The notes under the pieces: generated by a model | Told to the model about the DNA's origin: nothing | Database searches by the model: none | Seen by the model: the letters and a program-made list of their open reading frames with translations, nothing else | NCBI GenBank assembly: GCA_947478955.1 | Contig: CANJXJ010000010.1 | Coordinates: 1 to 41,344, forward strand | Reading direction: 5' to 3' | Source of the DNA: Alphaproteobacteria bacterium | GTDB taxonomy: Bacteria; Pseudomonadota; Alphaproteobacteria; Paracaedibacterales; CAITNM01 | DNA length: 41,344 nucleotides | Made by a program: the position numbers and the translations under genes | Part shown: positions 33,176 through 41,114 of the stretch, piece by piece | Numbering within the stretch: position 1 is the stretch's first letter | Layout of the letters: every line of letters starts with the position of its first letter

Positions 33176-33673
33176 CTATTCATTTTTCCAGTAAGACACT
33201 GACCTTGCAAAAATCAATCCTACGATTGAAAGTCCAAAAATCAGTAAGCCTGGTTGCATCAATCTGCCATCATAAATGTAACTAACAAATTCAATAAAAA
33301 TTGCCGATCCCACCAATCGCGCAACATTTACTAAAGCTGCAGCACGTGACTTTGTTTCGGGAATTACATTAAGCGAAAGCGGATAAATAATATTAACCGG
33401 CACCACCATGGGCATTGCAAAACAACAAGCAACACTTCCAACCACAAAGATAGCTAGACCACACAAAATGACCTTGCGTAAGCCATAACGATCGCCCAGT
33501 GCCCCTGCATATAATGACCCAATACAATAGGTAATAAAGTTTAAGCCTAGGCACAGCTGTACTTTAGCGGGAGATAAACTAAATTGTTGCTGCATTTCTG
33601 GATAGCTAGGAATGAATATATCAACTTCCATGCCTGCCAAAAACATGATGAAGGCAACCGCGATGAATAACAT
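33176..33673 (-). pseudogene. MFS drug/proton antiporter (Bcr/CflA type) with a large internal deletion
   Basis: Only 165 residues instead of about 400. Residues 1-88 match the N-terminal three membrane segments of the DHA1/Bcr family (MEVDIFIPSYPEMQQQF, then GALGDRYGLRKVILCG, the MFS loop 2-3 motif). From residue 89 the sequence switches to the C-terminal end (VPVNIIYPLSLNVIPETKSRAAALVNVARL and two final helices). About 230 residues have been lost in frame, removing most of the pore. The reading frame remains open, so a small membrane protein may still be made, but transport is unlikely. Confidence 0.75.
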
Positions 33674-33841
33674 TAGGATTTCAGTTTTGTAACTTAATGA
33701 CTTTAATGTATTTTTGGATTGTCTAGCATCCTATAAAAAACTAAGGGATAGATGTTTCTTTATGGAATAGCGTCGTCGTAAAGGCACATGTTTTTAAGGT
33801 GTTGATTGGGTAAGGATAACAACTGAAAGGCAAATGAGAAA

Positions 33842-34429
33842 ATGACAACATTGGAAACAGATAATAAAAAACGATGTTTTGGAGAAAAGCCAGGACAACA
33901 ATTTTATGCAAAATATCATGATGAAGAGTGGGGTGTGCCCTCCCATGATGATGATCATTTATTTGAAATGCTGATTCTTGAAGGTGCCCAAGCAGGATTA
34001 AGCTGGGAGACAATTTTGAAACGACGAGAGGGATACCGCTTGGCATTTCACAACTTTGATGCGGTTAAGGTAGCGGCCATGTCAGATGAAGAATTAGAAA
34101 CGCAGCGGAGTAACCCTGCAATTATACGTAACCGCCTTAAAATATACGCAGCCCGTCAAAATGCTAAAGTATTTTTAGAAATTCAAAAAGAACATGGAAC
34201 GTTTGCTAAGTACTTATGGGGCTTTGTGGAAGGTAAACCAATTTTAAACCATTACCAACAACTCAAAGACCTTCCGGGAAATACGTCTTTAAGTGATGCT
34301 ATTTCAAAAGATTTAAAAAAACGCGGCATGACGTTTGTAGGTTCCACCATTATGTATGCCTATTGCCAGGCGGTGGGGTTAGTGAATGACCACCTTACAG
34401 ACTGCTGGAAATATGGGAAATTGAGTTAA
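33842..34429 (+). CDS. tag: DNA-3-methyladenine glycosylase I
   Basis: A base-excision repair enzyme removing 3-methyladenine from alkylated DNA; 195 residues. The family pattern is intact: RCFG (Zn-binding Cys), KYHDEEWGVP (Zn-binding His), LFEMLILEGAQAGLSWETILKRRE with the catalytic-pocket Glu, KKRGMTFVGSTIMYAYCQAVGLVNDH, and the final H...C pair (NDHLTDC) completing the zinc site. It is a single gene on the plus strand between two minus-strand groups. Confidence 0.95.
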   Translation: MTTLETDNKKRCFGEKPGQQFYAKYHDEEWGVPSHDDDHLFEMLILEGAQAGLSWETILKRREGYRLAFHNFDAVKVAAMSDEELETQRSNPAIIRNRLKIYAARQNAKVFLEIQKEHGTFAKYLWGFVEGKPILNHYQQLKDLPGNTSLSDAISKDLKKRGMTFVGSTIMYAYCQAVGLVNDHLTDCWKYGKLS

Positions 34430-40218: not shown

Positions 40219-41114
40219 ATGATCCTGTTTCGCATTTTAATAATTCTTGGTGTTTCTTTCCTCGCATTCGCTGCAGCAACTAGCGCGCCTATAGACCGCC
40301 CCCTATACACACCTATCGATTCCGTGACCGAAATCAAGCATGCCTTTGGGCCAAGCACAGTACTTGTGTGTGACGCTGATGAAACAATTGGACAAGTGGA
40401 TTGCATGCCATGTAATTATGAAAATGGCAGGCAGCACAAAGAAGCAATGAAGCAATGATGCAATGATGCAATGATGCAATGATGCAATGATGCAATGATG
40501 CAATGATGCAATGATGCAATGATGCAATGATGCAATGATGCATTGTTGGCATGGCGTTTTATGAGTTAGCAATGGGAAAAAAATTTGATGTTGCAGATAG
40601 TGCGTTCTTTAAGTCTTTGTATGAGGTATTTGAAAGTGCCCCACATTCCTATAGCCTCACCGAAAAAGCATGGGGGTCTTTTCTAGCGTCAGCTCGAGCA
40701 AGTGGCTCCCCAACAATCATTATTTCATCTCGCAGTTTTTTCACAGATGGTGCAGACGCAGAACCCGCTCGTATAAAATTCTTTACAGATCTAGGTTTTG
40801 CAAGAGAGCACCTGCTTTATTCTGGAAGTGCAGACGATTGTAAGAAAGATGTAACCTTACATAAGTGGTTAGCTGATAAGCCAGAAATTACGCATATTGT
40901 TTTTATTGATAACTTGCGTGCTCATTGTGTAGAAATTACAGAATCTCTCCTTTTAGCAAAATATACGCGTACTGCATTTGAACACAATGCTTACTTAAGA
41001 TATTTTGAACGATTCCACCTAACTATTTTACATTTGCAATTACAAGCAGCTCATGATCGCAGAGTGCGCTTGACCGATGCCGAAATTCTGTTATGTAAAG
41101 ATGTAGAAGACTAA
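40219..41114 (+). pseudogene. DUF2608 HAD-like secreted protein split by an octanucleotide repeat
   Basis: The first part (ATG 40219, 79 residues) has a signal peptide (MILFRILIILGVSFLAFAAA) and HAD motif I (VLVCDADETIG). It ends at TGA 40456 within the first repeat unit. The second part (ATG 40551 to 41114, 187 residues) continues the same fold, with motif II (TIIISSRSFF) and the acidic motif (HIVFIDNLRAHC). The parts are in different frames with 11 repeat units and would be in frame with 1, 4, 7 or 10 units, but every unit adds TGA stops. DUF2608 proteins are HAD-superfamily proteins of unknown role in host-associated bacteria such as Legionella. The gene is probably inactive, or made as two pieces. 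Confidence 0.7.
40444..40547 (+). repeat. Tandem octanucleotide repeat (GCAATGAT)11
   Basis: Eleven perfect copies of GCAATGAT (40452-40539) are flanked by the variant units GCAATGAA (40444-40451) and GCATTGTT (40540-40547). Because 8 is not a multiple of 3, all plus frames pass through the same 24-base cycle, which contains TGA, so no plus frame is open. Each unit also holds ATG CAA TGA, with the stop overlapping the next ATG (TGATG). The minus strand is open in all frames and would read IIASLHHC repeats. Perfect units indicate recent slipped-strand expansion. Confidence 0.97.

Follow-up and report, generated by a model that had tools for sequence, protein, structure and literature searches.

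Perfect short direct tandem arrays with periods of 6–9 bp are known from bacteria as slippage repeats. The locus described here shares with them an array of this kind grown from a local seed, with a unit that is not a multiple of three. It differs in that the array lies inside a coding region and closes all of its frames. The GGGAATC repeat of Xanthomonas forms a dispersed family (PMC4692102), whereas here there is one array. Closer in form is the contingency octamer GCATCATC of hmwA, which is present in 12–15 copies (PMC3309571) and resembles the present array in unit length and copy number. However, the hmwA array is found in a putative promoter region, whereas this one is intragenic and no number of units opens the gene. 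The ATGA and TGATG overlaps of translationally coupled genes (PMC6728339, PMC10666635) have the geometry seen between successive mini-ORFs here. The present locus differs from them in having a series of two-codon ORFs that lack a Shine–Dalgarno (SD) sequence, in a pattern that is not conserved, and the last stop in this series overlaps no start in the right frame of the downstream ORF. With AphA (of the HAD class B acid phosphatases) and DUF2608 proteins, the interrupted gene shares a DxDET motif, which lies close to the N-terminus and follows a signal-like peptide. In contrast to these families, it reaches the cut-off of no family model, and no sequence match was found in the PDB.

The array occupies positions 40441..40542 (with no strand assigned) of the window, the whole stretch of 41,344 nucleotides that was analyzed, which comes from an uncultured alphaproteobacterium. 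It consists of about 12.75 units with a period of 8 (TRF score 191, combined with a listing of the units). The TRF call itself gives a period of 8 and 12.4 copies at 40444–40542. Eleven octamer units had been reported in the initial annotation, and the listing bears this out, with 11 perfect GCAATGAT units at 40452–40539 preceded by one GCAATGAA at 40444. In an alternative register starting at 40441, the same stretch reads as two copies of GAAGCAAT, then ten of GATGCAAT and a partial GATGCATT. The array exceeds chance by far. The longest perfect run at lag 8 comprises 83 matches; for 80 matches, log10 P per site is about −47. Among the other lags from 4 to 12, no run in the window exceeds 14.

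This is the sole perfect array (period 4–60, at least 3 copies, at least 24 bp) in 441 kb of the genome, a sample made up of the window and twenty 20-kb stretches; the 400 kb of further contigs contain no such array. Three tandem units of the pattern were found at no second site in the genome and in none of 384 other alphaproteobacterial genomes. RNA folding over the array is not stronger than in shuffled sequences (z +1.7), and a promoter and terminator search of the region returned nothing exceeding the shuffles. Repeats of other kinds were seen in the sampled genome. A short repeat around AAGCCAGAGGAAAA (195–244; L035 6111; L040 4653; L042 4382–4478) is possibly a dispersed element. Long tandem repeats with triplet-multiple periods (L042 10229–10556 and L044 4907–5462, periods 21/42 and 54/36 bp) probably belong to genes for repetitive proteins.

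The array divides a gene on the plus strand into two fragments, both delimited by translation and HMMER. The 5′ fragment (40219..40458) begins with ATG and runs for 79 codons to its first in-frame stop, the TGA at 40456–40458 in the second unit. It encodes a hydrophobic N-terminus resembling a signal peptide, followed by a HAD-type motif I (VLVCDADET). The 3′ fragment (40551..41114, 187 codons) carries ISSRS, similar to motif II, and FIDNL, similar to motif IV, and has neither a signal peptide nor motif I. The phosphatase motifs are thus divided between the halves. The protein has DADET close to its N-terminus and SSR and DN motifs further on, the pattern of HAD-type phosphatases; the split gene is of the HAD/class B acid phosphatase-like type and probably exported.

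Relatives of the 3′ fragment were found in G009, a genome of the same genus (52% identity), and in G019, a genome of the same order (44%). Alignment with intact homologues had been suggested at the outset as a check. Both relatives turned out to be single uninterrupted ORFs of 268–269 amino acids without an array, and the homology of the window splits at the array. The 5′ fragment matches residues 7–84 of the intact homologue (E 2.5e-12, HMMER) and the 3′ fragment residues 86–255 (E 2.8e-44). With the intact G009 protein as the query, the matches in the window break exactly at the array (7–84 and 86–255), and a profile search agrees with this split. The DUF2608 label of the initial annotation is weak. 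The model PF11019 matches neither fragment and one of the two intact homologues (L011; 15.7 bits, E 0.011), below the Pfam gathering cut-off of 22.6. A structure model of the G009 protein, of low confidence (pLDDT 62, two sequences), gave AphA class B acid phosphatases as the best Foldseek hits (E 0.03), a weak likeness that is no more than suggestive.

The gene is present in three of the 42 genomes of the order, and a class-wide search found it in no further genus; by this distribution it is a sporadic accessory gene. Among the congener loci examined, only this genome has it behind nusB, and DNA similarity of those loci to the window stops at or before the nusB stop codon. Named genomes were also scanned: the window fragment returned no relative, and the homologue returned the G009 contig only. 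A search of plasmids gave no match.

The repeat unit can be traced to the gene itself. Comparison with the DNA of L010 places the seed of the array at 40441..40449 on the plus strand, in the conserved codons GAA GCA ATG (Glu-Ala-Met of QHKEAM). The corresponding DNA of G009 is CAGCACAAAGAAGCAATG, which encodes Q-H-K-E-A-M and matches the window up to the array. The seed AAAGAAGCAATG is identical in G009, a congener without the array. By this comparison, the unit is a copy of the gene's own GAA GCA AT(G), and the ATG codons of the mini-ORFs are therefore duplicates of a methionine codon that is conserved inside the gene. GAA-GCA-ATG would have been duplicated as an 8-bp tandem copy, the copy altered once from A to T, and the altered copy expanded to about 12 units, for which we infer replication slippage as the mechanism. 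A mutation may have come first with neutral expansion after it, or the other way round.

With a unit length of 8, which 3 does not divide, and a TGA in the unit, the array closes all forward frames; the frame scan found a TGA every 24 nucleotides in each of the three plus frames, exactly as the initial annotation had stated. On the minus strand, all three frames are open across the array. The two-codon ORFs (ATG-CAA-TGA) with TGATG junctions that had been described are present in the units. What had been overlooked is that each unit contains two ATG codons sharing a frame (ATG ATG CAA TGA), so that ATGA and TGATG overlaps are both present. We simulated whole-unit numbers from 0 to 30, and the gene never opens. 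The product has 79 codons, or 84–85 with 0–1 unit. Whole-unit changes alone therefore fail to explain the frame, and at least one other change must have occurred. How special is this arrangement? When octamers drawn from the genes of the window are tandemly repeated in silico, 41% close all plus frames, about 6.6% give a stop/start overlap and 1.8% give TGATG. The stop/start arrangement is uncommon, yet it requires no design.

We consider it very probable that the locus is a pseudogene of a sporadic, probably exported HAD/class B acid phosphatase-like gene, in which codons of the gene itself gave rise to an array by slippage. There are intact homologues, and compared with these the frame in the window is interrupted. 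The alternative of a broken gene, which the initial annotation had left standing, is supported by the uninterrupted homologues and by the failure of 0–30 units to open the frame. The array is presumably unstable, and the gene would be without function. Two points count against a pseudogene. Apart from the array, neither half contains stops, so that any decay would have to be recent, or else one of the halves could still be under selection. A perfect array of 12 units, the only one in the genome sample, could also in principle be selectively kept. A second gene in the window, for an MFS transporter (33176–33673, minus strand), is also decayed. It encodes 164 amino acids compared with about 390 in congeners, with both ends kept and the middle gone; such decay elsewhere in the window fits the pseudogene reading. 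Further along the window, an intact gene for 3-methyladenine DNA glycosylase (PF03352) lies at 33842–34429 on the plus strand; it overlaps an antisense ORF of 101 amino acids (33741–34046) that is probably spurious.

The array, its length or the frame break could have been made by short-read metagenome assembly. The genome is a draft of 69 contigs, and G009, its close relative, was binned from a metagenome. Assemblers can misjudge the length of an array; the unit number in the draft assembly is possibly inexact. However, an array of about 100 bp fits in one ordinary 150-base read, its flanks are collinear with the homologues and its unit derives from local sequence. We regard an artefact as unlikely.

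Long perfect arrays of a non-triplet unit are the hallmark of phase-variable genes, and H. influenzae biogroup aegyptius, which has octamer arrays ahead of hmwA with 12–15 copies (PMC3309571), offers a precedent for a contingency locus, in which slippage of the array would turn the gene on and off. Here, however, none of the unit numbers from 0 to 30 yields an open full-length gene, and the array lies within the coding region rather than in a promoter. There is also no second such array in 441 kb, unlike in genomes known to rely on contingency loci. Classic phase variation by whole-unit change is ruled out for 0–30 units, in line with the earlier statement that a change in repeat number would restore no ORF, and a contingency locus is very unlikely.

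The initial annotation had raised the possibility of a termination–reinitiation ladder. Ribosomes would stop at the TGA at 40456, restart at the overlapping ATG codons and step 8 nucleotides at a time toward the 3′ part, with the copy number tuning the yield of that part. On paper the path is continuous. The stop of the 5′ ORF at 40456 overlaps the ATG at 40458, every stop further on shares bases with the ATG that follows it, and following these junctions between successive mini-ORFs leads from TGA 40456 to ATG 40538. The overlaps of −1 and −4 nucleotides are those usual in bacterial coupling (PMC10666635, PMC6728339). However, the geometry is unremarkable, given the share of window-gene octamers that would produce such overlaps if repeated, and the starts are duplicated internal codons. 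The unit contains no SD-like sequence. In three gene pairs of E. coli, removal of the SD sequence lowered reinitiation by 60–90%, and in one pair abolished it (PMC6728339). Reinitiation also drops steeply as the distance grows (PMC10666635). We infer that losses would multiply across about 12 steps.

The exit from the series is also unfavorable. The last hypothetical mini-ORF (40538..40564, plus strand) is not a two-codon ORF as had been supposed. It reads M-H-C-W-H-G-V-L and stops at TGA 40562–40564, so that the stop lies 11 nucleotides past the first base of the downstream ATG at 40551. A second exit exists on paper: from the ATGA at 40561 a further ORF of two codons opens, and its stop codon starts 5 nucleotides ahead of the in-frame ATG at 40572. 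The product of the 3′ part alone would lack both the signal peptide and motif I, and as the catalytic motifs are split between the halves, it is not expected to be an enzyme. The relatives have one ORF and no array, with no conserved overlap or gene order. We found no report of a reinitiation ladder on a repeat array in bacteria in the open-access literature. With copied methionine codons, no SD sequence, an exit that overruns the downstream ATG and divided motifs, the proposal is unsupported and we consider it very unlikely. The same low probability is given to a copy-number-tuned ladder of two- or three-codon ORFs that leaks a little downstream polypeptide, or one that drains ribosomes and peptidyl-tRNA.

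If TGA encoded tryptophan here, the unit would contain no stop and the array would be an in-frame switch, but we reject this reassignment, the least credible reading of all, on the stop usage in the window, where nine of 36 ORFs end in TGA, including the conserved ruvA and ruvB (identified by Pfam), and where readthrough would add up to 63 codons; TGA is an ordinary stop here, so reassignment cannot rescue the frame.

Ordinary slippage in a pseudogene is the most likely account of the array in this split gene. Should the ladder prove real after all, it would add a new type of translational control, one tuned by copy number. As a pseudogene, the locus is a clean case of an 8-bp slippage array built from a gene's own codons that mimics designed start–stop overlaps, and it cautions that ATG/TGA periodicity need not mean regulation.
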